From IMG/VR virus record IMGVR_UViG_3300017719_000030, positions 1 to 42,797 of that record: a DNA stretch of 42,797 nt; one strand, 5' to 3'. The stretch comes from a virus. Positions within the stretch are counted from its first letter, which is position 1. Each line of letters opens with the position of its first letter. The position numbers and the translations under genes are program-made. Positions 2-19,093 of this stretch are shown piece by piece. Under the pieces are notes generated by a model. The model had not been told where the DNA came from. It did no database searches and saw nothing but the letters and a program-made list of their open reading frames with translations.

Positions 2-3000
2 AATGATCCTAATAACTACTATGTTGATCCTAACGGATCTTCACGTTTAAACAATCTCGATGTTAATTCATTAACTGTTGATCGTATTAATAACCAAGGT
101 CAATGGTACGGTGACATTATTCTGAATGGTAATGAAAATACTTACTATCCGGTTACGTGGTATGGTGGTAACCAAGACGAGATAGTTGAAATTGAAATCT
201 ATCGTGGATATTCTGAACGAGCACCATGGAACCCAATTGGTACAGGTGTACACCACGGTGGCTTGAGTATGAAGCTACGGGCCAACTTCGGTGGCTGGGG
301 TGGCTCAACTTATGATTATCAGTTCGAAGATTTCCGTGAAACCTATACAACTATTGTTGCGGAGATCACTCGATTCGCTAATAACCGAGCCCTTTGTATT
401 TGGTTAAGAGGTGGCGGCGGCGGTGGTGCTATCTATCACGTTCGAATTAAAGGTAGAACATCTGGTCCTGTTGTTTCTTATGGTAGTTATGATCCGGGCG
501 GTAATGGAACTGGTGTTAGTCCTCGTACTGATACACCACAAACTAACATTCAAAATCATAACCACACTATTGGTCCTGATTTACAAGCTCGTTATTCGAA
601 CTCTTATATTTTCCGAGATCGTGATAACACTGGTTACTATGCAGATCCTACTGCTACTACATCACTAAGAACAGTAGGTGCTTGGTTAGCAAATGACACC
701 AGTTGGAGTGGTAACCCAGGATCTAACGTCGGTAAGTTGCAATATCACTCTGATCGTTGGTATATCGCTGCAGGATCAAACTCAAGTTTAATTGCTCAGT
801 TCCGTAGAAGTGGTTCTGACGTTGCTCGAGTTGATAATGACGGTGATATGGCTATTCAAAATAGTGATCCAACTTTCCGTTTCCAAGATACAAACAATCG
901 ATCAGCACACATTCATGTTAACAGTAATATATTCTATGTGTTACGTGGAGCTGGAACTAACTCAACAGGCTGGGCGTCAACAAACGGACGTTGGCCGTTA
1001 GAACTCCACATGAATGATAACAACGCTTACTTCGGTGGTCATGTTTGGATTACTGGTAATGCTAGGTCGTTCCGTTCTAACTCAACAAGTTCTTGGAGTG
1101 GTAACCCTGGCTCAAGCACTGGTAAGATCGAATATCACTCGAATCGTTGGTATTACAACGCTGGTCCTAACTCGACTGAAGTAGCAAGATGGCGACGTGG
1201 CGGTACTGATGTTGCTAGCATGAATAACAACGGTTGGACGAGATTTGGAAGTACAGGTACTGCTTCTTATTCTGTACATGGCAGCGACATCTATGCTGAT
1301 GGCGGCTGGTTACGAGTTTCAGGATCTCAAGGTGTTTACTGGCAGAGTCACGACACTCGGATTTATTCTCCAAACTCAACTTATATCTACACTCGTTCAA
1401 ACAACGGATGGATATTCGCGAACCGCTCTGCTCAGAATAAAGGTTATGTGTATCATGACGGTTCTAGCTTCGGATTACTAAACGGTGCTGGTTCTTGGAG
1501 AGTAAGAGTCCAGAACACTAATAACGATATTGAATTCTACGGCTCATCTCAATACGGAACGGCCGCTCGATTCCAAATTTACTATGATCGTGATCAAGGC
1601 TCGTCTTACTACGGTAACTTTGGCGGCACTTCACGGATGAATGAAATATCCGTTAATAGAATAAACTACGTAAGTGGTGGACCTGCTTACTTCTATACAA
1701 GTTCAGGTAACTTACGTGGATATATTCGTGCAACTGAGAGTAATGATTCTCACTTCGAATTTGCTACATCGGGTGGTGAAGATATTATCTTCCGTGATGG
1801 CGGATTCGGTGGTCAATGGAATCAGATTATTCGTGGTAATGGTCAAGTACTAACTGAGAATCAACATGATGCTCAGATATTCCGAGATCGTAATAATACT
1901 GATTTTTATGTAAATCCAAGTTCTACATCAAGGCTTTACAACTTGCGTGTTGAAGCTGGCCATGGCGATACTCGTCTACAATTACATTATAACCACCCGA
2001 GTAACCAATATGATTCTCATTTAACACTATGGGCATCTGAGCCAGGTATTACATACGACAACTGCGGTATCGGTGGTAACATTAACTTTAGTGGCCAATA
2101 CTATGGTCGACAAATTAATGATCATTCATACGGTACATATGTAAGATTCGATGTTAATGCTGGATACGTTGAAGCTTGGACAACTTCAGGTACTGCAGGT
2201 GGTGCTGGTGGACAAGGTACACGACAGTGGTATGTAAATAGCGGTGGTGATGCTATTGCTCGTGGTGCTTATAGTGCACCTGTATTCCGGTCTTCAAGTA
2301 ATAGCAGCTATAGATTCCAGCCTGTTGTAAGTAATGCATGGAGACTTAGTACTCCTAGCGGTTATTTAGATATTGGCCCAATGAACACTTCATATGTTCA
2401 TTTCCAATCTAACGGACCTACTAGATTCTATTTCCAACGCACAGCTTACTTCGATAATGATATTCGAGCTTATGGTACAAATGAAAGTGCTATTTTCTAT
2501 CGATTTATTGATCGTAATGATGGCAATTACTATACGCAGCCACACCAAACCAGTATTGTAAGGTATATTGGCCGACGTCGACACAATGAAGGCTTCTTAG
2601 TTGGTTCTTATAACAGCTACCAAGAAAACTCTTCTAGAACTAACCCAATTTATACAATCGGCTCGAGCTACATGCCGACTAATAATAACAATGCGTCCGC
2701 CCTTGCTAACATGTATGGTATTGGTTATACTTATGCTAATAATTCTCCCTTTATTAATATTGGCGGTGCTACTGGCTGGGGTATGTATGTTGCAGCCGAC
2801 GGGGATGCTCGAATCTTCCTAGATGGGTCATCTGGAATTGTATCAGCCTTAAGCGATGTATGGGGTAACAGATTTAGGGATCGTAACAATTCAAATTATT
2901 GGTGTGATCCTGCTGGTCAGTCTCGCTTCAATACGTTAACACTGCAAGGTAACCGAATAGGATTTATCAACACTGCTTTTGATGCTGAAATACGAGTTGA

Positions 3001-3778
3001 TGATAGTAACTTCGCTGGTTCAGGAGCACTATTTAGATTCTATGGTGATGGAGGCGCAGACAACGCTGCTTTAAGATCTGAAGTTCAAATTGCAACTACT
3101 CGAAGTTATGCTGAAATATTCTACGAGTGGGATGATGTAGGTTATTACTGTGATCCATCAGGCTTCTCTCGTCTGAACACCTTGCGGCTTTCAGGTAACT
3201 CTTTAGAGATTCAAGGTGGCTCACCTACGATCTACTTCCGAGATAGCAACAACCGCTCGGCAATGATACACAACAACTCGAACTTGATGTACATTCTACG
3301 TGGATCTGGAAATAACTCAACATCGTGGCAGACAATATTTGGTTACTGGCCTGTATATTGGAACTTGGAAAATAATGATGCCACATTCGGCGGAAGTATT
3401 TTTGCAAGAACTAACATTACTGCATACTCAGATGCTCGTCTTAAAGAGAACGTTTCAACAATTGAGAATGCTCTTGATAAAGTAATGCAACTCCGTGGTG
3501 TTAATTATAATTGGATTGATGATCCAGATAATACTCCTAAGATTGGTGTTATTGCTCAAGAAGTACAAGAGGTTCTTCCAGAAGTTGTTCAGTTCCACCA
3601 AGACAACGAAGATACAGAAGGAACGTATGCGGTTGACTATGGTAACATGACTGCACTCTTAATTGAAGGCATGAAGGAACAGCAGGAATTGATAAATAAC
3701 CAAAACAACATTATAAATAACCAGCAAACACAAATAGACGAGCTGAAAGCATTAGTTGATCAGCTTATTAACAAATAA
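2..3778 (+). CDS. Long tail fibre protein, 5'-truncated by the window edge, with C-terminal S74 peptidase/chaperone
   Basis: The reading frame is open from base 2, so the true start lies outside the window; the first internal ATG (263) is not a credible start. The protein is a receptor-binding fibre. It contains about six copies of a motif like D-x-N-N-x-x-Y-Y-x-D-P-x-x-x-S-R-L, typical of marine T4-like fibres. Two larger internal duplications are visible: the blocks containing SWSGNPGS (about 700 and 1090) and those containing NNRSA-I (about 890 and 3250). The last ~115 residues form an intramolecular chaperone (peptidase S74). The sequence SDARLKENV holds the Ser (codon at 3428) and Lys of the catalytic dyad, followed by IGVIAQEVQEVLPEVV and a C-terminal coiled coil. 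By family knowledge the domain trimerises the fibre and cuts itself off just before the Ser. The fibre type (distal half or side fibre) cannot be assigned. Confidence 0.9.
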   Translation, partial: NDPNNYYVDPNGSSRLNNLDVNSLTVDRINNQGQWYGDIILNGNENTYYPVTWYGGNQDEIVEIEIYRGYSERAPWNPIGTGVHHGGLSMKLRANFGGWGGSTYDYQFEDFRETYTTIVAEITRFANNRALCIWLRGGGGGGAIYHVRIKGRTSGPVVSYGSYDPGGNGTGVSPRTDTPQTNIQNHNHTIGPDLQARYSNSYIFRDRDNTGYYADPTATTSLRTVGAWLANDTSWSGNPGSNVGKLQYHSDRWYIAAGSNSSLIAQFRRSGSDVARVDNDGDMAIQNSDPTFRFQDTNNRSAHIHVNSNIFYVLRGAGTNSTGWASTNGRWPLELHMNDNNAYFGGHVWITGNARSFRSNSTSSWSGNPGSSTGKIEYHSNRWYYNAGPNSTEVARWRRGGTDVASMNNNGWTRFGSTGTASYSVHGSDIYADGGWLRVSGSQGVYWQSHDTRIYSPNSTYIYTRSNNGWIFANRSAQNKGYVYHDGSSFGLLNGAGSWRVRVQNTNNDIEFYGSSQYGTAARFQIYYDRDQGSSYYGNFGGTSRMNEISVNRINYVSGGPAYFYTSSGNLRGYIRATESNDSHFEFATSGGEDIIFRDGGFGGQWNQIIRGNGQVLTENQHDAQIFRDRNNTDFYVNPSSTSRLYNLRVEAGHGDTRLQLHYNHPSNQYDSHLTLWASEPGITYDNCGIGGNINFSGQYYGRQINDHSYGTYVRFDVNAGYVEAWTTSGTAGGAGGQGTRQWYVNSGGDAIARGAYSAPVFRSSSNSSYRFQPVVSNAWRLSTPSGYLDIGPMNTSYVHFQSNGPTRFYFQRTAYFDNDIRAYGTNESAIFYRFIDRNDGNYYTQPHQTSIVRYIGRRRHNEGFLVGSYNSYQENSSRTNPIYTIGSSYMPTNNNNASALANMYGIGYTYANNSPFINIGGATGWGMYVAADGDARIFLDGSSGIVSALSDVWGNRFRDRNNSNYWCDPAGQSRFNTLTLQGNRIGFINTAFDAEIRVDDSNFAGSGALFRFYGDGGADNAALRSEVQIATTRSYAEIFYEWDDVGYYCDPSGFSRLNTLRLSGNSLEIQGGSPTIYFRDSNNRSAMIHNNSNLMYILRGSGNNSTSWQTIFGYWPVYWNLENNDATFGGSIFARTNITAYSDARLKENVSTIENALDKVMQLRGVNYNWIDDPDNTPKIGVIAQEVQEVLPEVVQFHQDNEDTEGTYAVDYGNMTALLIEGMKEQQELINNQNNIINNQQTQIDELKALVDQLINK

Positions 3779-3838: not shown

Positions 3839-4291
3839 ATGGCTATGACTTATGAATGGTCCATTACCGGACTCAGAAAGCGCAATCAAGTGAACAGCGA
3901 AGGAGCTACCTTGGAAGGCGCTATTGTACAAACCTATTGGAAAGTTGTAGGTACAGATGATGTTAGTGGAGAAGTTGGTGAGTTCCCCGGCGCTACTCCA
4001 TTTACAGCAGTTGATGTACCAGCAGGTTCTTTTAAGGCTTTCTCTCAGTTGACCGAAGACGATGTTCTTGGTTGGGTACGAGCTTATGTAGATAATGATG
4101 CTACATATTGGGCACATATTCAAGAGCGCATTTTGAAGCAAATCGACGAAAGAGCTATTGAAGACGTTGCTGATCTGCCTTGGGGCGGCGCAACTACTGT
4201 TGCTATTCCTGAAGATCCAATCGGTGGACAGGAAGCAGAAGAAGATGTAGTTGAAGAAGAAACACCTGACGCTACTCCAGATTCAGAGTAA
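3839..4291 (+). CDS. Conserved phage protein, paralogue of the next gene
   Basis: A 150-residue acidic protein of unknown function with a good Shine-Dalgarno (taaggagaat) before the ATG. Residues 1-120 (MAMTYEWSITGL ... ADLPWGG) align with the following gene. Shared features are a (E/T)W-I start, N-S-(E/D)-G near residue 20, a W-(K/R) pair, a P-x-(G)-(S/D)-F step and a conserved L-T-E near the middle. The C-terminal 30 residues are a Glu/Asp/Pro-rich tail (EEDVVEEETPD) absent from the paralogue. Similar short proteins are common beside fibre genes of marine myoviruses; fibre-associated or assembly factor is a guess. It is the first gene behind the promoter at 3783. Confidence 0.8.
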   Translation: MAMTYEWSITGLRKRNQVNSEGATLEGAIVQTYWKVVGTDDVSGEVGEFPGATPFTAVDVPAGSFKAFSQLTEDDVLGWVRAYVDNDATYWAHIQERILKQIDERAIEDVADLPWGGATTVAIPEDPIGGQEAEEDVVEEETPDATPDSE

Positions 4292-4310
4292 CAAAATCTA
4301 GGAAAATCAA

Positions 4311-4643
4311 ATGACTTACACCTGGGAAATACTAAAATTTTCGACTCGAGACCAAACTAACAGTGACGGTGTTTTGTTAGAAAATTCCGTAGTCTCTATA
4401 CATTGGAGACGAACAGGTTTAGATTCTGAAGGGAACGTTGCTTCTATCGTGGGACACACCGTGTTATCAGCGGAAACTGTTCCAGAAGGAGACTTCGTTC
4501 CTTTCACTTCTTTAACTGAGTCTGCAGCTAATAGCTGGCTTGAAGCTAACATTAGTGCTGAAAGAATGTCCAGCTATAACGAAAAGATTCAAGCAAAGAT
4601 AAATAGTTCTGTTACGACTGAAAGAGCTGTTCCTTGGTCTTAA
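4311..4643 (+). CDS. Conserved phage protein, tandem duplicate of the preceding gene
   Basis: A 110-residue protein beginning MTYTWEILKFSTRDQTNSDG, clearly related to the upstream 150-residue protein over its whole length but without the acidic tail. Both end near a Pro-Trp. It starts 19 bases after the upstream stop, preceded by aggaaaa. The function is unknown; the pair has diverged strongly, so this is an old duplication. No signal peptide or membrane segment is seen. Confidence 0.8.
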   Translation: MTYTWEILKFSTRDQTNSDGVLLENSVVSIHWRRTGLDSEGNVASIVGHTVLSAETVPEGDFVPFTSLTESAANSWLEANISAERMSSYNEKIQAKINSSVTTERAVPWS

Positions 4644-4679
4644 ACCTTTAATTGATTTATATTTTATTATGGAGTTGTT

Positions 4680-5714
4680 ATGCATGATTTACGGTATCAT
4701 GGCCTCGTTAGATACGCATTAAAACGGGGCGGAAGCATCCATCCTATTACCTTACCTAAAGAGCTTACTAACGAAACTGGTATCATGAACCCTTCCATCT
4801 TTATTCACGATGGAAGGATCTTTATGAATGTTCGACACGTTAACTATACTCTTTACCATTCAGAAGGTAAAAAGTTCCCTCATATGTGGGGTCCTCTTCA
4901 ATACATTCACCCAGAAAATGATGTTACACTCCGTACACACAATATAATGTGTGAGCTTGATTCTAACATGAAAGTGCTTAATGCTGGCCGAATTAATATG
5001 AAGCTGGATACAGATCCTACTTGGAACTTTATCGGTCTTGAAGATGGTCGCCTTTTTAGTTGGGAGAATCGCTTATTCCTTTGTGGTGTTCGTCGAGATT
5101 GTTACGATGATAAAGGCACCGGTCGAATGGAAATGTGTGAGATTGAGTGGATTGATAACGAGTGGCAAGAAGTATCTCGTAATCCTATTCCTGCCCCAGG
5201 AGACAATGCTACTTACTGCGAAAAGAATTGGATGCCGGTTATTGATATGCCATGGCATTTTGTCAAGTGGTGTAACCCAACTGAAGTCATTAAGTTTGAT
5301 ATTGAAAAGGGTACAACAACTACTGTTCACTTAGACGAAACCAAGCGTTATCATCAGTTTTCAAGAGATCTTAGAGGTGGCACTCAAGTATTTCCTATAG
5401 GTGATGGACGTCGCTTATGCTTTACACACGAAGTTGACTTGCTCAAAGATGTCTTCCATCGAAAAGATGGTCACTATAATCACCGTGTTATTGTATGGGA
5501 TGATGAATGGAACATTATTCATGCAACACAAGATTTTAGCTTCTTTGGTAGCCAAATAGATCCAACACTAGGACATGAATATAACATTGAGTTTGCTACA
5601 GGTATTACTTTCTTAGATGGTGATGTTCTTATTGCGTTTGGTTATCAAGACAACGGAACATTTATTTTGAGAATGTCTGAAGAGATATTCTTCGACTTTG
5701 TGGCGAGAGGATAG
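4680..5714 (+). CDS. Five-bladed beta-propeller glycosidase/phosphorylase-like protein (GH130-like)
   Basis: A 344-residue protein with repeated blades of the type N-P-S-(I)-F-x-x-D-G-R-(I)-F near residue 38, G-L-E-D-G-R-L-F near 119, GGTQVFPIGDGRRLCFTH near 235 and a late G-I-T-F-x-D-G-D-V-L-I. The E-D-x-R step corresponds to the E-D-P-R region of GH130 mannoside phosphorylases, where the catalytic Asp sits. The spacing of blades also resembles beta-1,2-mannosyltransferase-type propellers. The role is therefore probably sugar transfer or phosphorolysis, but the substrate is unknown. It ends three bases before the FkbM gene and is followed by a nucleotidyltransferase/cupin gene, so a glycan-modification operon is likely. 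The family call rests on motif memory only. Confidence 0.55.
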   Translation: MHDLRYHGLVRYALKRGGSIHPITLPKELTNETGIMNPSIFIHDGRIFMNVRHVNYTLYHSEGKKFPHMWGPLQYIHPENDVTLRTHNIMCELDSNMKVLNAGRINMKLDTDPTWNFIGLEDGRLFSWENRLFLCGVRRDCYDDKGTGRMEMCEIEWIDNEWQEVSRNPIPAPGDNATYCEKNWMPVIDMPWHFVKWCNPTEVIKFDIEKGTTTTVHLDETKRYHQFSRDLRGGTQVFPIGDGRRLCFTHEVDLLKDVFHRKDGHYNHRVIVWDDEWNIIHATQDFSFFGSQIDPTLGHEYNIEFATGITFLDGDVLIAFGYQDNGTFILRMSEEIFFDFVARG

Positions 5715-5717
5715 ATT

Positions 5718-6935
5718 ATGTTACAAGAATTATTGAATGAACACGCTCATGATCCAAAAGATCCGAATAAAATATACAACCTCGCTCGACAATATGATAT
5801 TGAAGAACAAGGTGCAATGGCAATATCTCTTTATCTAAAGGCTGCTGATTTAACATTCGACGAAGAACTACAATATCGTTGTATGCTAAGAATTGCGTTA
5901 GTATATAACAGACAAGGTAACCGCCGATACACTGTTGAAGGAGCTTTGCTAGATGCTCTTGGTTTAGGACCTGAAAGACCTGAAGTACATCATCACTTAT
6001 CTAATTACTACGCAGAAGTAGGAGCTTGGAAGCAAGCTTATTATCATGCTCATGCAGGTGTCATGTGTTCAGAATCATATGATCACTATGAAGAACTTGA
6101 GTTTGGTGGCATTGAACATGTATTGGTACAGCGAGCTATAGCAAAGTGGCATATCACTGGTCAGCAAGATGCTAAGCGTATGTTGTTTGATCTTAAATTT
6201 AGACAGGGCCTGAAAGACCCTGAGTTGTACCAGCAGGTCAGTGATAAGCTAGACTATATACTATATCCTGACACGATCTATTACAAGGAGGAGGACTTCG
6301 AGAGGTTTAAGTGGTACTTCCCAGGCCTGGAAGACATAAAGAAGAATTATTCTAAACATTACCAAGACTTATTCGTATTATCACTTTACCAAGGCAAGCG
6401 AGATGGAACTTACTTTGAAATAGGCGCAGGTGATCCGTTTGTTCATAGCAATACTGCACTACTTGAAAAAGAATTTGGCTGGAAAGGTATTTCAATTGAC
6501 AACAACCCTGGGCTGTGTTATAATTTTAAGCAGAATCGTCGTAATCCAGTAATATGTGCAGATGCTACTACAATAGGGTTTAACGATCTTTTTGATAAAC
6601 ATTGTGTGGATCCTATTGTTGATTACTTACAAATTGATTGCGATGATGCAACACATGATATACTTAAAAATATCCCATTCGATCGTTATAAGTTTGGTGT
6701 AATTACTCTCGAGCATGATTGTTATCGTTTGGGAACAGAAACTCGAGATGAAATGCGAGAACTTCTACGTGAGCAGGGATACGTTTTACTAGTCGGTAAC
6801 GTAGCATTTACAGAAATCTTCCCTTACGAAGATTGGTTTGTACATCCTGACGTTGTTGACATATATAATCATATGAAAGGAAAATCTGGTCTCAACTTTG
6901 TTTGGGACTACTTTATGAACGAAATTGAGGTGTGA
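5718..6935 (+). CDS. TPR-like domain plus FkbM-type methyltransferase
   Basis: A 405-residue two-domain protein. Residues 1-150 are helical with TPR-like repeats (KIYNLARQYDIEEQGAMAIS, then two similar helix pairs with Y and A at fixed positions). Residues ~215-390 are an FkbM-family SAM-dependent methyltransferase: motif I is YFEIGAGDPFVHSNT (about 232), followed by an acidic SIDNNP and by DYLQIDCDD, which replaces the usual D-x-L-K-I-D-V-E-G. FkbM enzymes O-methylate sugars or other hydroxyls. The gene starts 3 bases after the propeller gene and its end overlaps the start region of the next gene. Bases ~6200-6330, between the domains, use AGG, GAG, CTG and GGC codons much more than the surroundings. 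Confidence 0.75.
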   Translation: MLQELLNEHAHDPKDPNKIYNLARQYDIEEQGAMAISLYLKAADLTFDEELQYRCMLRIALVYNRQGNRRYTVEGALLDALGLGPERPEVHHHLSNYYAEVGAWKQAYYHAHAGVMCSESYDHYEELEFGGIEHVLVQRAIAKWHITGQQDAKRMLFDLKFRQGLKDPELYQQVSDKLDYILYPDTIYYKEEDFERFKWYFPGLEDIKKNYSKHYQDLFVLSLYQGKRDGTYFEIGAGDPFVHSNTALLEKEFGWKGISIDNNPGLCYNFKQNRRNPVICADATTIGFNDLFDKHCVDPIVDYLQIDCDDATHDILKNIPFDRYKFGVITLEHDCYRLGTETRDEMRELLREQGYVLLVGNVAFTEIFPYEDWFVHPDVVDIYNHMKGKSGLNFVWDYFMNEIEV

Positions 6936-6937
6936 CT

Positions 6938-7690
6938 ATGATAACGGTAATTGTGACTGGTGGCTTTGATCCGATACACAGCGGACATATTGCTTATCTT
7001 GAACATGCATCTAGAGAAGGAACTCGTTTAGTTGTCGGTGTAAATTCAGACGAGTGGTTAAGGCGTAAGAAAGGCAGAGAATTTATGCCTTGGAAAGAGC
7101 GCGCAGCAATTATTCAAGGTCTAACAAGTGTGGACTCGGTAATTGCATTTGATGATTCGGATGATTCTGCATGTGATGCTATTCGCCAAGTAAAAGAAAA
7201 GTATCCCGAAGAAATAATCGTTTTCGCTAATGGCGGTGATAGGACTAAAGACAATATTCCAGAGATGATATTTGATGATGTAGAATTTGTGTTTGGTGTA
7301 GGTGGCGAAGATAAGAAGAACAGTTCGTCTTGGATACTTAAAGAGTGGGCTCAGCCTACAACTCAGCGTAAATGGGGTACGTATAAAGTACTTGATTCGA
7401 ATGGTAGCTGGGCAGTTAAAGAACTAAGCTTTGATCAAGGTAAATCATTAAGTGATCAACGACATTTTGAGCGTAGTGAGCATTGGCATGTTGTTGCGGG
7501 TCGTATACGAATGGACCTTGAGTTTCCCAATGGTGATACGTCTACTATCACTTACGGACCAGGACAGAGCATCGATATACCTGTTAATACATGGCATAAG
7601 GCTACGAATGTCGGTGATACAGCCGCAAAAGTAATCGAAGTCTGGCTCGGAGATACACTGAAAGAAGAAGACATCGAGCGTCGAGATTAG
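6938..7690 (+). CDS. Cytidylyltransferase-like domain fused to mannose-6-P-isomerase-type cupin
   Basis: Residues 1-130 are a nucleotidyltransferase of the TagD/RfaE-C type: VTGGFDPIHSGHIAYLEHA carries the HxGH signature, and NGGDRTKDNIPE matches the second conserved loop. Residues ~145-250 are a cupin like the C-terminal domain of ManC/type II phosphomannose isomerase (KWGTYKVLDSNGSW, SLSDQRHFERSEHWHVV, an IPVNTWH metal-site strand, and the end V-I-E-V-W-x-G). The fusion suggests activation and isomerisation of a sugar phosphate for a nucleotide sugar. The ATG at 6938 was chosen because gagg lies 7 bases upstream; a GTG at 6932 is in frame but has no spacing for a ribosome site. It overlaps nothing but follows the FkbM stop by 2 bases. 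Confidence 0.75.
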   Translation: MITVIVTGGFDPIHSGHIAYLEHASREGTRLVVGVNSDEWLRRKKGREFMPWKERAAIIQGLTSVDSVIAFDDSDDSACDAIRQVKEKYPEEIIVFANGGDRTKDNIPEMIFDDVEFVFGVGGEDKKNSSSWILKEWAQPTTQRKWGTYKVLDSNGSWAVKELSFDQGKSLSDQRHFERSEHWHVVAGRIRMDLEFPNGDTSTITYGPGQSIDIPVNTWHKATNVGDTAAKVIEVWLGDTLKEEDIERRD

Positions 7691-7711: not shown

Positions 7712-7740
7712 CGCTAATAGTCTGGAGGACGAAGATGGCG
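7712..7740 (+). repeat. Duplicated leader, copy 1 (second copy 10061-10088)
   Basis: The stretch CGCTAATAGTC(T/A)GGAG(G)ACGAAG followed by ATGGC is present here and at 10061-10088, each time carrying the Shine-Dalgarno of a paralogous gene. It indicates duplication of a leader-plus-gene unit. Confidence 0.75.
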
Positions 7741-8124
7741 GTACAAGTCGGTTCTGATGTCGTCATTGATGACAATAAAAATCTAACAAACATTGCAGGG
7801 GCTGATGGCCGCTACGATTCTTTCTATCCTAATGTATCTGCACCAACCACTACAGGTACGCTGAATATCAGTATGGATGTTCCCATGTATAACTTAGTTA
7901 TGACTGGGACAACAGCATTTACTGTTACAGACAAAGGTCTGGGTAAAACAAACATTGTTCTTATCGATACAGCAACTGCTCCTCATTCTGTTTCATTTGA
8001 TACTAATGTAAAATGGGCTGGTGATACAGAACCAACTTGGACTGACCATAGGTTTTGGACTGTCGGATTAGTATCTTGGGATACGACCACTGTTAGGGCA
8101 ACAGCATCCGGATTTGATTCATAA
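7735..8124 (+). CDS. Putative virion structural/adhesin-associated protein (paralogue 1 of 4)
   Basis: A 129-residue beta-rich protein starting MAVQVGSDVVIDDNKNLTNI. The same fold-length module occurs in the genes at 8135, 10083 and 10471. Shared marks are I-x-G-A-x-G-x-Y-D near residue 23, a D-T-(A/S)-(T)-A step near 80, V-K-W near 97 and E-P-T-W-(T/S/A)-D-H-R-(F/Y)-W near 103, then A-x-G-(F/Y) at the end. It follows a late promoter and a strong ribosome site (ctggagg), so it is probably made late as a virion part. The family has no function that I recognise. Confidence 0.75.
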   Translation: MAVQVGSDVVIDDNKNLTNIAGADGRYDSFYPNVSAPTTTGTLNISMDVPMYNLVMTGTTAFTVTDKGLGKTNIVLIDTATAPHSVSFDTNVKWAGDTEPTWTDHRFWTVGLVSWDTTTVRATASGFDS

Positions 8125-8134
8125 GGAATAAATT

Positions 8135-8974
8135 ATGACAGTTCAAATCGGCCCAGACGTAGTTATAAATGATTCTCTCTTTCTGCAAAACATAGCAGGA
8201 GCACAAGGTCGTCATGATAACTTTGCTTCAAAAGTACATACACTAGTTAATGGAACACTTGATTTCAGTAATGGTGTTATTCAAAAAATGGATATGTCTA
8301 GTGATGTTACGTTTACTATTCCGGGCACCGTACCTAATGTAGCATCTATACTTCTGCTGTTAGATACTTCCGCGACTCCACATACTCCAACATTTGCTGA
8401 TACTGGACAGCTATCATTTAGCTGGGCTGGTGGTAGTGAACCAACTTGGTCCGATTTTAGATTTTGGCAAGTATACATACAAGCCACACTCGTTTCCGGT
8501 GTTGTGAGAGTATCTGCACAGGGATTTGCCGCAGCTGCAGCGCCTCCACCTACTGAAACTGTAAGCTTAACCGGAACTCTTGCACTTCCAAATAATGCAA
8601 TTGGCCAATCTGATGGTGACGTGGCTGGCATTGTTGTTGGGTGGGCATTTTACGCTGATGGTAATATAGTTACTACGACTACTGATGCTACTGCACCACC
8701 TACGTCAGCTCGAGGTGCTTGGTGCTCAAACAGTCCTCCGAATAACACTTACTATATGCGTATAACTGATTCAACAGGTGTTAATATTGATACTTCGATT
8801 TCAAGTCCTATAAACACTTGGAATCAAATGAATAGTTCATTACTAGTTAAATGGTCAATCGACTATCAAACCGCCTCAATAGGTCAAGTCAAAATAGAAA
8901 TCTCAGATGCTTCTGATGGTAGCAATATTCTTGATACTGGATACTATGGCATAAACGTAGAGAGTGGTCAGTAA
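8135..8974 (+). CDS. Putative virion protein: module shared with neighbours plus beta-sandwich extension
   Basis: A 279-residue protein. Residues 1-~130 are a copy of the 129-residue module (LQNIAGAQGRHDNF, SEPTWSDFRFW, SAQGFAAAA). After a short Ala/Pro linker (about 131-140) comes a Ser/Thr-rich beta-type domain. It starts 10 bases after its paralogue, with aaggaataaatt as ribosome site. The extension occupies the same place as the extension of the 10471 product but lacks a Hint domain, which is instead encoded by the next gene. Confidence 0.7.
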   Translation: MTVQIGPDVVINDSLFLQNIAGAQGRHDNFASKVHTLVNGTLDFSNGVIQKMDMSSDVTFTIPGTVPNVASILLLLDTSATPHTPTFADTGQLSFSWAGGSEPTWSDFRFWQVYIQATLVSGVVRVSAQGFAAAAAPPPTETVSLTGTLALPNNAIGQSDGDVAGIVVGWAFYADGNIVTTTTDATAPPTSARGAWCSNSPPNNTYYMRITDSTGVNIDTSISSPINTWNQMNSSLLVKWSIDYQTASIGQVKIEISDASDGSNILDTGYYGINVESGQ

Positions 8975-8975
8975 C

Positions 8976-10058
8976 ATGAGTATATTACCTCACGCAATTC
9001 AAGTTATTGGAACAGCCGGTGAAGGAAAACCACCTTACCCAACAGGTACATTTACTGTAAAGCAATACGGTGATGGGGAAACTGGAAACAGTGTTACTAT
9101 TCTTGCTTCTGAAAGTCTCAGTGGTGCTGGGACCGCGCAATCAAGCGCTCTCATAACAACACGAACAACTCGAACAGCAAATGGCGCTACAATTACATTT
9201 ACTCCTAGTGGTAATAATAGAACTTCAAATCAATATCGCCAAGCTTCAGACGGAACACAAGTATCTTTTCCTTCACCATCTACAACTATTACAGGATGGT
9301 CTTATGCAGGTGGGTCTTCTACAATAACGGCAGTACGTTATGATGTAAATGGCGCAACAGGTAATTGGTTGCCTATTACTGGTGTAGGTCTTGATGCTAG
9401 TATTGTTCGTGGGTCATCTGCATCTTACAGCGGTAGTGGTGGCGACGGGTCTAGTTCTGATTCAGATAGTGACTTCATTGAAATTTATCTTCGAAGTAAC
9501 GAATACGCAGATACTAAAGTAGCAGAATTCCAATTTTATACACAAGCATATGCTGCTGCTAATTGCTTTATCAAATCATCTCGAGTATTAGTATGGGATG
9601 AAGAGTCTAGCACTTATGTAGAACATCCAATATCACACGTATATAATCTTGTAGAAGTTGGTCATAGCGTTATTGTTCAAGGTTCTGACGGTGTAAGAAA
9701 TACCGTCGTTGAAGCAAGAGCAGTGTGGCAACCTCAAACAATATACGGATTTAATGGATCAGATAATTTTGTTACCGGCGGCCATCCATTTTTAACTACA
9801 ACAGGTTGGAAGTGTATGGATGCTGAAAATGGCCGAGCGCTTCATCCAGAATTAAACATCACTCAGCTCGAAGTTGGTGATACTCTTGTTCGTTTTGATA
9901 AAGATACTGGCCAATACACAGAAGAAGCTTTATCAATAATTACAGAAGAAGCTACAGAACAAACAGTGTACTCACTTGATGTGAGTGGTGATAATACACC
10001 AGACATTGAAGGAAATGATACATATATAGTTAATGGTTACGTAGTACATAACAAATAA
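8976..10058 (+). CDS. Virion/adhesin-like protein with C-terminal Hint (hedgehog/intein-like) domain
   Basis: A 360-residue protein. Residues 1-~195 are a Ser/Thr/Gly-rich beta region ending in YADTKVAEF. The last 164 residues form a Hint autoprocessing domain. It begins with Cys (codon at 9564), carries T-G-G-H (block B T-x-x-H) in FVTGGHPFLTT, then V-G-D-T-L and V-Y-S-L-D-V, and finishes YIVNGYVVHN plus one Lys before the stop. The nucleophile, the block-B His and the terminal His-Asn are all present, but there is no splicing +1 Cys/Ser/Thr. Thiol-mediated cleavage or transfer of the N-terminal part to an acceptor is therefore more likely than splicing. ATG 8976 was chosen over GTG 8964 because the start MSILPHA matches MTLPHA of the gene at 11883. 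Confidence 0.8.
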   Translation: MSILPHAIQVIGTAGEGKPPYPTGTFTVKQYGDGETGNSVTILASESLSGAGTAQSSALITTRTTRTANGATITFTPSGNNRTSNQYRQASDGTQVSFPSPSTTITGWSYAGGSSTITAVRYDVNGATGNWLPITGVGLDASIVRGSSASYSGSGGDGSSSDSDSDFIEIYLRSNEYADTKVAEFQFYTQAYAAANCFIKSSRVLVWDEESSTYVEHPISHVYNLVEVGHSVIVQGSDGVRNTVVEARAVWQPQTIYGFNGSDNFVTGGHPFLTTTGWKCMDAENGRALHPELNITQLEVGDTLVRFDKDTGQYTEEALSIITEEATEQTVYSLDVSGDNTPDIEGNDTYIVNGYVVHNK

Positions 10059-10060
10059 AG

Positions 10061-10088
10061 CGCTAATAGTCAGGAGACGAAGATGGCA
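10061..10088 (+). repeat. Duplicated leader, copy 2
   Basis: Second copy of the leader at 7712-7740, differing by a T/A change, one missing G and the bases after ATGGC. It lies right after the Hint-gene stop and supplies the ribosome site of the gene at 10083. Unlike copy 1 it has no TATAAATA upstream. Confidence 0.7.
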
Positions 10089-10460
10089 CTCAAAATATCA
10101 GGAATTACAGTTGTTAACGACTCGAGAGAGCTCACAAATATTATCGGAGCATCTGGAAATTATGATGGGTTTCACCCTACGGTAACTACTATTACAACCA
10201 CGCTCGATTTTGATAAGCCGGTAATGATACGCACTTTAACTTCGGCTTCATCGTTTACTACTTCTAATGTATCTGCTGGGCAAACTTCGATTCTCATTCT
10301 CGACACTTCCGCGACTGGCTATGATCCATCATTTACCTCAGCTATTAAGTGGCCTGATGATAACGAGCCTACTTGGGCAGACCATCGCTATTGGGTTATC
10401 TCATTCATATGTGTTAGTGGTACTTCAGTAAGAGCTAACGCAGCTGGATATAATTCTTAA
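10083..10460 (+). CDS. Putative virion protein (paralogue 3 of 4)
   Basis: A 125-residue paralogue of the 7735 product: the MALKISGITVVNDSRELTNI start, IIGASGNYDGFHP, LDTSATGYDPSF, IKWPDDNEPTWADHRYW and ANAAGYNS end all align. It is preceded by the duplicated leader with tcaggaga. The order small module gene, then longer module gene, repeats the arrangement at 7735-8974. Confidence 0.75.
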   Translation: MALKISGITVVNDSRELTNIIGASGNYDGFHPTVTTITTTLDFDKPVMIRTLTSASSFTTSNVSAGQTSILILDTSATGYDPSFTSAIKWPDDNEPTWADHRYWVISFICVSGTSVRANAAGYNS

Positions 10461-10470
10461 GGGATAAATC

Positions 10471-11871
10471 ATGGCACTTAAAATTCAAGGCAATGATGCC
10501 GTAACAAATACTCGAGAGCTTGATGTTGTTGGAGCAGACGGAGTATATGACGATTGGCATCCCAATACAACTGTTGCTTCTCCGGGCGCAGCCTACTCAA
10601 TCAACTTTCAGAATCCTTTCCACAGCTTGAGCTTAACAGCTAGTGTTACTTTTTCCGAATTAAATAAATCTGTTGGTCGAAGTGTTACTATACATTTAGA
10701 TACAGGTACTGCGCAATATTCACCGTCGTGGTCGGGTAATGTAAAATGGCCTGGAGGCACAGAGCCTACTTGGTCTGATAATCAATATTGGATAGTGAAT
10801 CTTATCGTAGGTATTGGTGGAAGTATTATATTCGGTTCAGCGCAAGGATTTGAAGGTATTCCAGCAACGGCAAACTGGCCAAGCGGAACGTATACCGCAA
10901 GAAGTGGAACTGTAAACTTAGCTGCCGAAGTAAATGACTATAGCGCCGACCTTCCGCCTGTATCATCTACTGCAAGAGCAAGGTTTAGATTTTATCGTAG
11001 AAATGGAGGCGGATCTTATATAGAATTCGAACCAACTGGCACAGACGGTGGTGACCCAAACGTTTGGTGGACTCCCAGCGGCACACAAAACACAATTGCT
11101 AGTGGAGCAGACCAAACCTTTTGGACTGAAACCACGGTTAATCCTTCACACACAAGAATAGTTGTTAAAGAAGGTGCAACAGTAATAGATGACACTGGAT
11201 ATGTATCAAGCGCTTCTGTTGACACCGGTGCGGTAGAATCCGCTACTGTTAATGCTAGTGAATCTGGTACCGGCAGTACTACGAATACATCTACTAAGAT
11301 CGTCGAATGTTGGGCCCGACAGAGTGGTTATGCAGATACTAAAGTTTCAGAATTTAAAGTTGAGTTAACAGCACGTGCGAATGGGTTAGCTTGTTTTACT
11401 GGAGAAGTTCCATTATACAAATGGGATACGAGTTCTAATTCTTGTGTTATAACTCCGATGAGTCAAGCATATAATGAGTGGCTCAATCGTGAAGAAGGCG
11501 AGACTCATCATGTAATTGGGCAAAATAATAATACAAAAGAAATATTAAAATTCAAAGAGTTTGAAGTAACTCAACTCATATACGGCATCAATGGTTCTGA
11601 TTACTTTGTTACCGGTGGCCATCCATTCTTAACAACTGACGGATGGAAGTGTTGTAATCTTGAAACAGGTAATCAATACTATGAGAATGTTGAGCTTACT
11701 CAGCTTGTAGTTGGAGATAAGCTTCTTAAATACGATGCAGAGTATAATACGTACTATGAGCAAGAGGTACTTGAAATGACTTCTTCGCTATTAACTAAAA
11801 CTGTTTATTTGTTAGATGTAGCAGGCGATGATACATATATTGCTGATGGCTATATTGTTCACAATAAGTAA
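10471..11871 (+). CDS. Virion/adhesin-like protein: module + beta region + C-terminal Hint domain
   Basis: A 466-residue three-part protein. Residues 1-~130 are the module shared with the three preceding paralogues (ELDVVGADGVYDDWHP, EPTWSDNQYW, GSAQGFEG). Residues ~135-305 are a Ser/Thr-rich beta region ending in YADTKVSEF. Residues 308-466 are a Hint domain starting CFTGEVPLYKWD, with FVTGGHPFLTT (His384), VGDKLLKYD, VYLLDVAGDDTYI and the end YIVHN-K. It looks like the gene at 8135 fused to the Hint part of the gene at 8976. Cys, T-x-x-H and His-Asn are all kept; the +1 residue is Lys, so cleavage or ligation is more likely than splicing. Confidence 0.8.
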   Translation: MALKIQGNDAVTNTRELDVVGADGVYDDWHPNTTVASPGAAYSINFQNPFHSLSLTASVTFSELNKSVGRSVTIHLDTGTAQYSPSWSGNVKWPGGTEPTWSDNQYWIVNLIVGIGGSIIFGSAQGFEGIPATANWPSGTYTARSGTVNLAAEVNDYSADLPPVSSTARARFRFYRRNGGGSYIEFEPTGTDGGDPNVWWTPSGTQNTIASGADQTFWTETTVNPSHTRIVVKEGATVIDDTGYVSSASVDTGAVESATVNASESGTGSTTNTSTKIVECWARQSGYADTKVSEFKVELTARANGLACFTGEVPLYKWDTSSNSCVITPMSQAYNEWLNREEGETHHVIGQNNNTKEILKFKEFEVTQLIYGINGSDYFVTGGHPFLTTDGWKCCNLETGNQYYENVELTQLVVGDKLLKYDAEYNTYYEQEVLEMTSSLLTKTVYLLDVAGDDTYIADGYIVHNK

Positions 11872-11882
11872 GGACTGATCGA

Positions 11883-14800
11883 ATGACTTTACCACATGCA
11901 ACAGGAATTTTCGGAGGACTATCTGAGACTCATGCATCCTCAGCAGTTCCAGAAATTAGTACTGTCGTTTTAAATGGCGGCGGATCCTCTGTTAGTGAAG
12001 GTGGAACAGCTACTTTTAATGTTAGCACGGTAAATATACCAGATGCTACATCTTTAACTTGGGTCGTTACGCACGGTACTACAGCGGCCGCTGACTTCAC
12101 CTCAACTACTGGAACAGTTACAATTACTAGTAATAGCGGTTCGTTCGGTGTACCCACTGTTGCTGATAATACAACTGAAGGTAATGAAACATTTACCGTA
12201 AGCGTAACAGGTAATGTTAGTGGCACCGCGGTATCTAAGTCTTCAACCAGTATAACAGTACTTGATACTTCACAAGATCCTTCGACACCACAGATAACGT
12301 CCTTTGCAGCCTCTCCTACTGCTATATACGAAGGTGGATCTGCTAGCACTATTACACTTGCTACCAGCGACATACCAAATGGTACACAATTAAATTGGGA
12401 AATCGCTAATGGGACCAACACAACTAATGCAGATTTTACAGCATCATCAGGAACTATAACAATTAACAGCAATGCAGCAACGATCTCTGTTTCTGCCGTT
12501 GACGATGCAACTCGAAACGCTGCAGTTGGACAAACTGGATCAGATACATTTGGTATTCGAATCTATGGCACAGTCGGTGGTAACACCGTCGATACAACTA
12601 GTGCATTAACTATTTGTGGCATTCGAGATGAAACACCAGTTATTCATAACATTGTTGTACCTACTTCAGTTAACGAAGGAAGTAGCGCGAACATAACAGT
12701 AGAGCATTATGATATTCCCACTGCAACATCAATGAGTTGGGAATTAATAGGATCTGGCGGATCTCCTTTTTCCAATGCCGATTTTTCAAATTCTTCAGGT
12801 ACAGTCAATTCTGGAGGCGATGGCGGCTCAACAACGCTTGATGATACAACTATTATTAGCATTGCTCCTATCAACGACAATACTACCGAAGGAGCTGAAA
12901 CTGGATTTATTCGTGTTTCTGGTACTTCTGGTGGTGTTGCGTTTACTAAAGATTCTGGCGTGTTTACAATTAATGATACATCAACAACACCTCCATCAGT
13001 AGATTCTGTTACAGGGCCGTCTTCTGTTAATGAAGGTGCTGCGGCAACTATCAACGTATCGACAACAAATATTCCTGATGGCACCACTCTTTCGTTTACA
13101 GTTAACCATGGAACATCATCTGCCGCTGATATGAATGTATCTTCTGGTAACGTAACAATTAATAGTAATGCCGGTGCGTTTGCTTTAACTATGACTGCTG
13201 ATTCTACAACTGAAGGAAGTGAAACCTTTACTGTTACAGTGTCAGGTACAGTAAGTGGCACGGCGGTTTCTGCTACATCAAGCGCAATTACTATTAATGA
13301 TACATCTACAACACCGGCTCAACCGGCTATTAATAGTGTTACAGGACCTACTACGGTTAATGAAGGATCCAGTGCTACAATCAATGTTGTTACATCAAAC
13401 ATTGGTAATGGAAATACTTTAAGTTGGAGCATAAATCACTCTTCGACTGCATCTGCAGATTTTGGATCAACAAGTGGTACTGTAAATGTTAGTTCAAACG
13501 CAGCTTCATTTACGATTCCTATAGTTGCGGATAGTACAACTGAAGGTAATGAAACATTTACAGTAAGTGTAGCATGGACTGTACCGAACGGCGGACAGGG
13601 TGAATCCGGTACTTCAGGAGTCATTACAATCAGCGATACATCTCAAACACCTGCACCTACATATAGTGTAACAGCACCGGCTTCTGTTAACGAAGGTGCA
13701 ACTGGAAGTATGAGCGTCACTACAACGAACGTAACAAACGGAACAACACTTTACTGGACTGTAACTCCCTCAGCAGATTTTGGAACTACGTCGGGATCAT
13801 TTACTGTTAACTCAAATGCAGGATCATTTACAGTAAGCCCTACAGCCGACTCAACGACAGAAGGTGCAGAGACAGGTACAATTGCAATTCGAACCGGAAG
13901 TACGAGCGGCACAATCGTTGCAACTGATACATTTACAATTAATGATACGTCAACGACTCCTGTTCCTACCTATGCAATTAGTGCGCCATCTTCGATTGAT
14001 GAAGGTTCTTCTGGTTCGTTTACTGTAACTACCACGAATGTGACGAATGGTACAGTGTTATATTTTACGATGAACTTAACTGGAGATTTTGCTAGTCCAT
14101 CCGGAACAGTTGCAATTAATAGTAACACAGGATCGTTTTCTCGCACACCTACTGCTGATACTACGACTGAAGGAGCTGAAACTTGTACAGTCAGCCTCAG
14201 AACAGGAAGTACAAGTGGTACAATCGTTGCAACCGACACCTTTACAATTAATGATACTTCAACAACACCACCAACATATTCAATTGCAGGTCCCGCTACT
14301 CTTAATGAAGGCGCGACAGGCACGATGACTGTAACCACCACGAACGTAGCGAATGGCACTACACTTTACTGGTTAGCAGGTCCTGCTAGTGACTTTAATA
14401 CAGACATTGGTACTCTTACTATTAACAGTAACTCGGGTACGTTTACGATTACACCTACAGCTGATAATACAACTGAAGGTACTGAAACTGCAACAATACG
14501 TGTATACGATGACGCAGGTAGAACAAATCAAGTAACTGGTAGAGATGTTGATATTATTGATACTTCAACAACACCACCAACTTATGCTGTTACAGCTCCA
14601 GCTTCTATCAATGAGGGTTCAGCTGGTACAATTAACGTTACAACCACAAACGTAGCTGATAGCACAGCGTTGTACTGGTCAGTAACTACAGGTGATTCAC
14701 CAGCAGACTTTAGTACAGGTAGCGGTACAGTCACAATTACCAGTAATGCAGGATCGTTTACTGTAACACCGGATGCTGACACTACGACCGAAGGGTCTGA

Positions 14801-15539
14801 AACAGCTACTATAACTTTAAGAACTGGTAGCCAAGGTGGTACAATTGTTGCTACGGATACCTTTACAATTAATGATACGTCACAAACACCTGCACCAACT
14901 TATGCTGTTACAGCTCCAGCTTCTATCGATGAAGGTGTTGCTGGTACCATGAACGTTACAACCACAAACGTGGCGGATAGCACGACATTGTACTGGTCTG
15001 TCGAGCCGGCTGGTGACTTTAGCACATCGTCAGGAAGCTTTAGCATAAGTTCAAACGCAGGTTCGTTCACTGCAACACCTACAGCAGATTCTACAACTGA
15101 AGGTGCAGAAACCGGAACTATCAGAATACGAACAGGAAGCACGAGTGGCACAATCGTTGCAAGTGATACGTTTACGATTAATGACACATCAACAGCTCCT
15201 TCACAGACTCTTACATGTTCTAACGGTAATAATTTCACATTGCTCAACCAAGACAACTCGACGAGCGAAACATTTACTGCTACAGGACTGAATACGTCGG
15301 GAACATATAATCTCGTTGTACCAAACCCAACAGTTACTTCAGGTTCTTTGTTATGTGAGTTTAGTTCTTTCTTTTACGCAATGACTCACCAAGGTGGTGG
15401 TACTTGGACTGCTAATGTAAGACTAGATCGCACAGGTACTACAGTGGGAACCGGTTCGTCTTTATGTGAAGTTAAGGACGGCTTTACCTCACTCTCGCCT
15501 ACTTTAACACGAACAGTTTACGTCGTACAGTCCAACTAA
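11883..15539 (+). CDS. Calx-beta repeat protein, probable virion adhesin
   Basis: A 1218-residue protein whose start MTLPHATGIFGG resembles the N-terminus of the 8976 Hint protein. It has ten tandem beta-sandwich repeats of 100-115 residues. Each opens with (V/I)-(N/S/D)-E-G-x-(S/A)-x-(T/S)-(I/F/M)-x-V-x-T and closes with T-T-E-G-x-E-T-x-T, a (V/I) strand, and D-T-S-x-(T)-P. This is the Calx-beta pattern, whose acidic loops usually bind Ca2+. The final ~110 residues (from TLTCSNGN) are a different beta domain with three Cys. There is no signal peptide, so a role on the phage particle fits better than secretion. It sits 11 bases after the Hint gene and is the last gene before the neck operon. 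Confidence 0.8.
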   Translation: MTLPHATGIFGGLSETHASSAVPEISTVVLNGGGSSVSEGGTATFNVSTVNIPDATSLTWVVTHGTTAAADFTSTTGTVTITSNSGSFGVPTVADNTTEGNETFTVSVTGNVSGTAVSKSSTSITVLDTSQDPSTPQITSFAASPTAIYEGGSASTITLATSDIPNGTQLNWEIANGTNTTNADFTASSGTITINSNAATISVSAVDDATRNAAVGQTGSDTFGIRIYGTVGGNTVDTTSALTICGIRDETPVIHNIVVPTSVNEGSSANITVEHYDIPTATSMSWELIGSGGSPFSNADFSNSSGTVNSGGDGGSTTLDDTTIISIAPINDNTTEGAETGFIRVSGTSGGVAFTKDSGVFTINDTSTTPPSVDSVTGPSSVNEGAAATINVSTTNIPDGTTLSFTVNHGTSSAADMNVSSGNVTINSNAGAFALTMTADSTTEGSETFTVTVSGTVSGTAVSATSSAITINDTSTTPAQPAINSVTGPTTVNEGSSATINVVTSNIGNGNTLSWSINHSSTASADFGSTSGTVNVSSNAASFTIPIVADSTTEGNETFTVSVAWTVPNGGQGESGTSGVITISDTSQTPAPTYSVTAPASVNEGATGSMSVTTTNVTNGTTLYWTVTPSADFGTTSGSFTVNSNAGSFTVSPTADSTTEGAETGTIAIRTGSTSGTIVATDTFTINDTSTTPVPTYAISAPSSIDEGSSGSFTVTTTNVTNGTVLYFTMNLTGDFASPSGTVAINSNTGSFSRTPTADTTTEGAETCTVSLRTGSTSGTIVATDTFTINDTSTTPPTYSIAGPATLNEGATGTMTVTTTNVANGTTLYWLAGPASDFNTDIGTLTINSNSGTFTITPTADNTTEGTETATIRVYDDAGRTNQVTGRDVDIIDTSTTPPTYAVTAPASINEGSAGTINVTTTNVADSTALYWSVTTGDSPADFSTGSGTVTITSNAGSFTVTPDADTTTEGSETATITLRTGSQGGTIVATDTFTINDTSQTPAPTYAVTAPASIDEGVAGTMNVTTTNVADSTTLYWSVEPAGDFSTSSGSFSISSNAGSFTATPTADSTTEGAETGTIRIRTGSTSGTIVASDTFTINDTSTAPSQTLTCSNGNNFTLLNQDNSTSETFTATGLNTSGTYNLVVPNPTVTSGSLLCEFSSFFYAMTHQGGGTWTANVRLDRTGTTVGTGSSLCEVKDGFTSLSPTLTRTVYVVQSN
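11952..15200 (+). repeat. Ten-copy Calx-beta coding repeat array
   Basis: The repeats are recognisable in DNA as well as protein. The ninth and tenth copies are the closest: a run of about 30 identical bases starts at 14580 and again at 14898 (318 bases, 106 codons apart) and is followed by near-identity for about 80 more. Other copies differ at most third positions, so only the last duplication looks recent. Confidence 0.75.
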
Positions 15540-18643: not shown

Positions 18644-19093
18644 ATGAGTGGAGACAAGATATTAGAAAGCATGGGACTAGCACCGATCGAGAAAGATCAG
18701 GAGCTAAAGCCTGTAGAAGATATTACTGAGCAGCTTCCGGTTGTACAAGAAAGTAATCTTCCTGTTACTAGCGTAGCAAGTGAAAGAGCCGCAGAAGAAA
18801 ATCTTAAAGACATAGAGCTTGCTAAACGTAATATCGAAAACATTATTAATCTTGGTGATGACTCTGTAAAAGAAATGGTCGAGATTGCAAAGCAGTCAGA
18901 ATCACCTCGAGCTTTTGAAGTTGTCTCCACTCTCATGAAAACTTTACTAGACGCTAACAAAGATTATGTTGAGATGTCTACTAAAAAGCGCTATGCTAAA
19001 GAAGAAAAGCAAGCAGAAACCCAAGTTACAAATAATAATCTTATTGTATCAACGGCCGATTTACTTAAGATGATAAAGGGTGAAGATGACTAG
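18644..19093 (+). CDS. 16: Small terminase subunit gp16
   Basis: A 149-residue protein. The gp16 core is present: DIELAKRNIENIINLGDDSV, ESPRAFEVVSTLMKTLLDAN and a C-terminal LIVSTADLLKMIKGEDD, close to T4 gp16 (164 residues). It is an acidic helical protein, expected to form a ring that recognises DNA and stimulates gp17. The last 8 bases overlap the start of gp17 (ATGACTAG). Confidence 0.85.
   Translation: MSGDKILESMGLAPIEKDQELKPVEDITEQLPVVQESNLPVTSVASERAAEENLKDIELAKRNIENIINLGDDSVKEMVEIAKQSESPRAFEVVSTLMKTLLDANKDYVEMSTKKRYAKEEKQAETQVTNNNLIVSTADLLKMIKGEDD

Follow-up and report, generated by a model that had tools for sequence, protein, structure and literature searches.

A near-invariant lysine after C-terminal Hint domains hints at cutting or chemical attachment of virus adhesins

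Two neighbouring genes of a 42,797-base fragment of a marine virus from IMG/VR (the window, meaning the whole stretch analysed) encode tail-fibre or adhesin-type virion proteins that each end in a Hint domain resembling the type A bacterial-intein-like (BIL) class. The explanation that we favour, with a confidence only a little above even, is that the Hint is a self-removing C-terminal module, which would form a thioester at its first Cys and so release the adhesin during virion maturation. Across the wider family in ocean phages, a near-invariant lysine directly after the terminal Asn (the +1 position) hints at an apparently undescribed form of cutting or chemical attachment of virus adhesins.

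Two Hint proteins in a tail and fibre region

By sequence comparison the source virus is T4-like; its terminase (19080-20690) is 61% identical to that of Sinorhizobium phage phiM12, and the genes 3' of the Hint genes run in the order neck adaptor of gp13 type (PHROG 211), head closure, tail sheath stabiliser, terminase and sheath. On the upstream side a tail fibre with a C-terminal Peptidase_S74 domain (endosialidase chaperone; 2-3778) is encoded, and the position between this fibre and the neck genes places the Hint genes in a tail and fibre region. Four paralogous genes with a common N-terminal domain of ~128 aa form an array at 7735-11871, and two of them encode that domain alone. Besides protein 2 below, the array holds a stand-alone, Hint-less copy of the protein 2 N-terminal domain (7735..8124, + strand; 33% identity to protein 2, E 1e-23), a second Hint-less gene in which a domain of this type is joined to a further part (8135..8974, +), and a stand-alone copy between the two Hint genes (10083..10460, +; 36% to protein 2). 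A large Calx-beta repeat protein (11883..15539, +; PF03160) directly follows the gene for protein 2. Separately, three genes lie at 4680-7690: one of 344 aa that belongs to no known family, one for an FkbM-type methyltransferase and one for a cytidylyltransferase-cupin protein. All three are conserved beside the adhesin array in relatives, which suggests a sugar-related modification.

Protein 1 (360 aa; 8976..10058, +), delimited by its open reading frame and a structural model, comprises a beta-rich N-part (residues 1-196) and a C-terminal Hint domain (197-360); its ATG at 8976 directly follows the stop of the upstream gene, and a GTG at 8964 is a possible alternative start. The segment directly before the first Cys, YADTKVAEFQFYTQAYAAAN (9504..9563, +), is common to protein 2 and to Hint-less paralogues. 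From Cys197 (codon at 9564) to the +1 Lys, Hint 1 spans 9564..10055 (+), with the block B motif T-G-G-H at residues 267-270 (9774..9785, +) and a terminal His-Asn-Lys at residues 358-360 (10047..10055, +), followed by the stop TAA (10056-10058). Protein 2 (466 aa; 10471..11871, +) comprises the N-terminal array domain (1-128), a beta-rich middle, a YADTKV segment and a C-terminal Hint (308-466) preceded by YADTKVSEFKVELTARANGLA (11329..11391, +). Hint 2, recognised from a sub-threshold match to PF14890 and a fold model, spans 11392..11868 (+) from Cys308 (codon at 11392) to Lys, with T-G-G-H at residues 381-384 (11611..11622, +) and His-Asn-Lys at residues 464-466 (11860..11868, +) before TAA (11869-11871). 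The first-pass annotation, made from the letters alone, had described two frames ending in one same domain, with these Cys codons and motifs, and on all these points it holds. The two copies are homologous, aligning over 198 aa at 40% identity with E 1e-42 (43% in a second comparison), a value that rejects chance likeness; the common region takes in ~30 residues before the Cys (YADTKV..EF).

Fold and class of the Hint domains

In sequence-only searches the window Hints matched no NCBIfam family and no PHROG, Hint 1 alone gave no meaningful match among PDB sequences, and INPHARED yielded no phage at E 0.01; the sole Pfam signal was PF14890 (Intein_splicing) on Hint 2, at E 0.0019 and below cut-off. 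Kinship is visible only by profile or fold model. A profile of relatives used in a sequence search found 2lwy (E 2e-8) and 6y75 (E 5e-8), and AlphaFold models made from the window proteins and from proteins of related loci have Hint pLDDT mostly >90. The best match of the Hint 1 model is 6y75, the BIL2 domain of Tetrahymena thermophila BUBL1 (Z 18.3, rmsd 2.0, 136 residues aligned), to which Hint 2 matches at Z 18.1; the Clostridium BIL 2lwy follows at Z 15.7 and 15.3 for Hints 1 and 2, and hedgehog 1at0 at 15.6 and 14.7. Many inteins match both models at Z 14-17, and there is little besides HINT domains among the matches. In the structure alignments of both models the Cys falls on residue 1 and the Asn on the last Hint residue. 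Both window domains are thus predicted to be Hint domains with the horseshoe-shaped, all-beta HINT fold, and the proposed Hint identity and active-site layout are borne out by models of both C-terminal domains that match solved HINT structures.

Within the superfamily, the window copies possess the Cys nucleophile at residue 1 and block B T-x-x-H, together with the C-terminal His-Asn of type A BIL domains and a Lys in place of Cys, Ser or Thr at +1. Their carriers are variable, as in type A: N-parts evolve faster than Hints in nearly all pairs and are unrelated between distant members. Judged by sequence, the domains are best classed as type A-like BIL, with an HN end and no +1 nucleophile, following the type definitions in PMC4031507 and PMC7765530. 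Type B BIL domains lack the block G His-Asn, which both window copies retain; a canonical intein would continue into a C-extein with Cys, Ser or Thr at +1, where here a single Lys precedes the stop; and the PT-HINT domains of polymorphic toxins have a toxin domain C-terminal to the Hint, where nothing follows the Lys in either window copy. The N-parts matched no Pfam family, ubiquitin included, and were barely covered by fold searches. A resemblance of protein 2 to T4 gp9 (1qex) was set aside: its probability of 0.97 came with an rmsd of 16 A and a TM of 0.14-0.21, and it was absent among the matches listed in a second comparison.

A family of Hint domains on unrelated tail proteins

Alignment-based searches of IMG/VR recovered about 100 distinct relatives, where a pattern search with a single protein as query had found nothing. 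Of 110 family domains long enough to include position 1, 109 have the Cys there, the one without it being a split partial match; block B [TS]xxH is missing from only 6 of 114 (four partial matches, and two with a His outside the pattern used), so that Cys1, the block B His and HN persist across very divergent members. The Hints end or interrupt unrelated proteins, among them T4-like array proteins, repeat-rich fibres, phrog_32 tail assembly proteins (lambda gpI-like), a phrog_1101 tail protein, a Calx-beta-like protein (L070) and a DUF4815 protein; together with gene position, these recognised tail proteins support the virion and adhesin setting first proposed for the window pair. In the isolate phages JWF and PSTNGR1, proteins from the tail region likewise end in Hints, but these lack the terminal HNK.

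Several further observations concern the carriers. Lambda gpI-like tail assembly proteins ending in an HNK Hint are L092 (for which phrog_32 was shown), L095, L081, L087-L089, L091 and L093. Since gpI itself contains a domain of the ubiquitin-like type (PMC1779556), this recalls BUBL, in which ubiquitin-like domains adjoin a BIL. Tandem Hints in one protein (L099, L100, L146, L035 and others) are linked by as little as Lys-Gly (HNKGCF) or Lys alone (HNKCF), so that the would-be extein between them amounts to one or two residues. In four large structural proteins (L041, L134, L137, L150) an HNK Hint lies internally, before a DPxAQTF-type segment, and L134 carries DUF4815. Two genes after the Hint tail-fibre gene of Achromobacter phage JWF (L115), an anaerobic sulfatase-maturating enzyme is annotated at 4234-5598. 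A contig from a Planctomycetota MAG (L111) also has this phage locus and is probably a phage contig in the bin.

The +1 lysine

The frequency of Lys at +1 was counted from searches with queries cut before the His-Asn; a first set, whose pattern contained HNK, was dropped as evidence. Lys occupies +1 in 105 of 110 distinct domains, in 48 of 53 clusters at 70% identity and in 22 of 26 at 50%, the exceptions being S, V, T, R and A. Exactly at this residue 37 of the 110 end. What had been described as a single Lys before the stop is present in both window copies, as stated, and is no incidental residue: the family as a whole conserves it at +1. Codon usage is mixed (AAA 61, AAG 47), all three stop codons occur afterwards, and relatives with C-parts of up to 764 residues have the same HNK, which rejects a codon or stop-context artefact. 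In members with a C-part the following residue varies (G, C, A, P, S, D and others), so the Lys belongs with the Hint, whatever extein comes after it. It is likely to take part in the Hint chemistry or its local geometry rather than to be a C-extein. In a control on bacterial Hints from 395 and 392 genomes, Lys+1 occurred in 3 of the 10 whose HN end could be read, the sites being read by eye; the residue is thus not unique to phages but far more fixed there.

The ending of the domain also tracks block F. At the position of the intein block F His, domains ending at +1 have Asp in 33 of 39 cases and His in none, whereas His is found in 23 of 71 domains with a C-part; the window copies lack it. 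Because block F is without the intein His, Asn cyclisation may be weak in such domains, and the Asp pattern would fit either a lost or altered cyclisation step or a pairing of Asp with the terminal Lys.

Descent, selection and Hint-less paralogues

Of the 36 Hints ending at +1 in a 109-member tree, 35 group together, though with weak fork support (90/51), the outsider being the HNT-ending L155. Hint 2 falls in a set of nine (100/99) with L013 and L016, and Hint 1 lies outside it, within a set of 18 (100/94). These separate places reject a recent tandem duplication and agree with the description of two different proteins, with Hints from different sub-clades; the window phage accordingly holds two Hint types, each of which occurs singly in the related loci examined.

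Selection acts unevenly on the two parts of these proteins. In seven of the eight usable pairs (Hint identity 0.65-0.95) purifying selection is stronger on the Hint, with dN/dS of 0.06-0.35 for the Hint and 0.34-1.35 for the N-part; one pair is level (L015/L022, 0.30 vs 0.27), and saturation of the Hint's synonymous sites affects L058/L008.

The arrangement was sought in related phages and recurs: in ~20 related contigs the Hint gene lies at the same place, inside the paralogue array, after the 344-aa, FkbM methyltransferase-type and cytidylyltransferase-cupin genes and before gp13, with the Calx-beta protein directly behind it in the L005, L008, L009 and L058 types. The arrays of these same four types also hold Hint-less paralogues, which have the segment before Cys1 and then end, their stop coming a few residues past the Cys1 position. 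Their last residues before the stop are YTVQAYAEARIGSV in L005, FKIQAYAWARAYS in L058 and CEAYAAGQRSVL in L009, for comparison with the junction of window protein 1 (...FYTQAYAAAN, followed by the C of residue 1). Since these sister genes stop near the Cys1 position, an N-part without a Hint looks to be a natural, complete protein.

Self-removal and its alternatives

The first-pass annotation had proposed that the phage uses the Hint to mature its adhesins or to attach them covalently, and both outcomes are still matters that we infer. Maturation by self-removal gains support from the Hint-less paralogues ending at the junction. In this scheme the domain would fold and Cys1 would attack the preceding peptide bond; an N-S acyl shift, helped by block B T-x-x-H, would yield a thioester; and either hydrolysis or attack by an amine nucleophile would then free the adhesin. 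The Hint might thereby play a role in tail assembly akin to that of the chaperone (Peptidase_S74) borne by the 2-3778 fibre. Self-removal would explain why Cys and His are conserved, why paralogues lacking a Hint look complete and why the domain is terminal. Against it, N-terminal cleavage alone leaves the conserved terminal Asn and Lys unexplained.

A Lys-directed step is an unlikely reading and the most interesting alternative, because BIL2 is reported (PMC8616854) to splice with formation of a Lys isopeptide and to hand a ubiquitin-like protein on to substrates. A lysine epsilon-amine, either of the Hint's own +1 Lys or of another virion or host-surface protein, would capture the thioester as an isopeptide, and Asn cyclisation would then free the product, leaving in the window an adhesin with an isopeptide-linked Lys or one cross-linked to a partner. 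The fixation of Lys at +1, whether counted over distinct domains or over clusters at 50% identity, its encoding by both codons and the variability of the residues after it are consistent with such a role, and covalent attachment has its precedent in this nearest solved fold. The Lys of BIL2, however, is described as part of the neighbouring ubl5 domain, Lys+1 also occurs in the bacterial control, no candidate partner was identified, and the step requires a deprotonated Lys amine near the thioester.

An uncleaved domain, in which the Hint fold is kept as a structural or adhesive element and performs no chemistry in the virion, is improbable. Changes at block F affect some of the positions that assist catalysis, and a search of the open-access literature yielded no paper with cleavage data on phage tail Hint domains and no published activity for any family member; yet the retention of Cys1, the block B His and HN in very divergent members, and the stronger constraint on the Hint than on its carrier in nearly all pairs, argue against it.

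Two further readings are more improbable still. Splicing with a one-residue C-extein would have Asn cyclisation free the lysine, whose alpha-amine would aminolyse the thioester to leave the N-part plus Lys; PMC4031507 describes a type A BIL mechanism that needs no nucleophile at +1, HN and +1 are conserved together, and the same HNK occurs in relatives with long C-parts, but a freed single amino acid would diffuse off, making religation unlikely, and the window copies lack the block F His. Selfish mini-intein remnants moving between tail genes without benefit would suit the promiscuity on unrelated proteins and the mini-intein-like size, although a homing endonuclease would not fit into the window domains of 159-164 aa, traceless splicing is not expected where +1 is not Cys, Ser or Thr, the domains ending at +1 group together (if weakly), and gene position is fixed in the ~20 related contigs.

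A broader proposal, which we regard as doubtful, is that marine tailed phages carry a distinct HNK class of Hint, in which the +1 Lys is, or positions, the amine nucleophile and tail adhesins are freed in isopeptide form or linked by isopeptide bonds with no ATP or separate enzyme, as a viral counterpart of BIL2 dispensing.

Implications

If HNK Hint domains are active, the maturation of virion adhesins would be an autocatalytic thioester process, and a conserved lysine without a C-extein would be accounted for. Phage HNK Hints also make testable the question of what natural purpose BIL domains have and which nucleophile they serve, and an ATP-free, one-gene means of attaching proteins to lysines would, if true, serve as a tool in protein ligation. 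The plain reading too gives reason for annotation, since many unrelated tail proteins of marine phages would share one promiscuous, self-processing cap.

Comparison with known systems

Type A BIL domains, reportedly the subject of Amitai 2003 and Dassa 2004, share with the window Hints the HINT fold, Cys1, block B T-x-x-H, the C-terminal His-Asn, fast-evolving carriers and the want of Cys, Ser or Thr at +1. The phage Hints differ in sitting on tail-type proteins and in a +1 residue that is nearly always Lys and often the last, and whereas type A domains cleave on the N side, the C side or both, with splicing in some, the phage Hints are only predicted to do so. BIL2 of Tetrahymena thermophila (BUBL1 locus, 6y75/6tmm), also a BIL domain, gives both Hints their nearest match among solved folds (Z 18); it is eukaryotic, lies between ubiquitin-like domains and is only 17-18% identical, whereas the window proteins match no ubiquitin family, and the Lys isopeptide chemistry reported for BIL2 is a proposal for them. 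The hedgehog Hog domain is likewise a C-terminal Hint that could pass its N-part to a nucleophile (1at0, Z 15.6), but the window proteins stop one residue past the Asn and have no sterol-recognition region, which sets them apart from that class. The tail protein of Achromobacter phage JWF (KP202971, 'Hom_end-associated Hint family protein') provides an isolate with a C-terminal Hint on a tail-fibre-like protein, though this Hint has no terminal His-Asn-Lys and is closer to a type B arrangement. The Peptidase_S74 endosialidase chaperone is a C-terminal self-cleaving module of phage fibres; one is encoded in the window itself, and it and the Hint share a C-terminal position on fibres while being unrelated in fold and chemistry.
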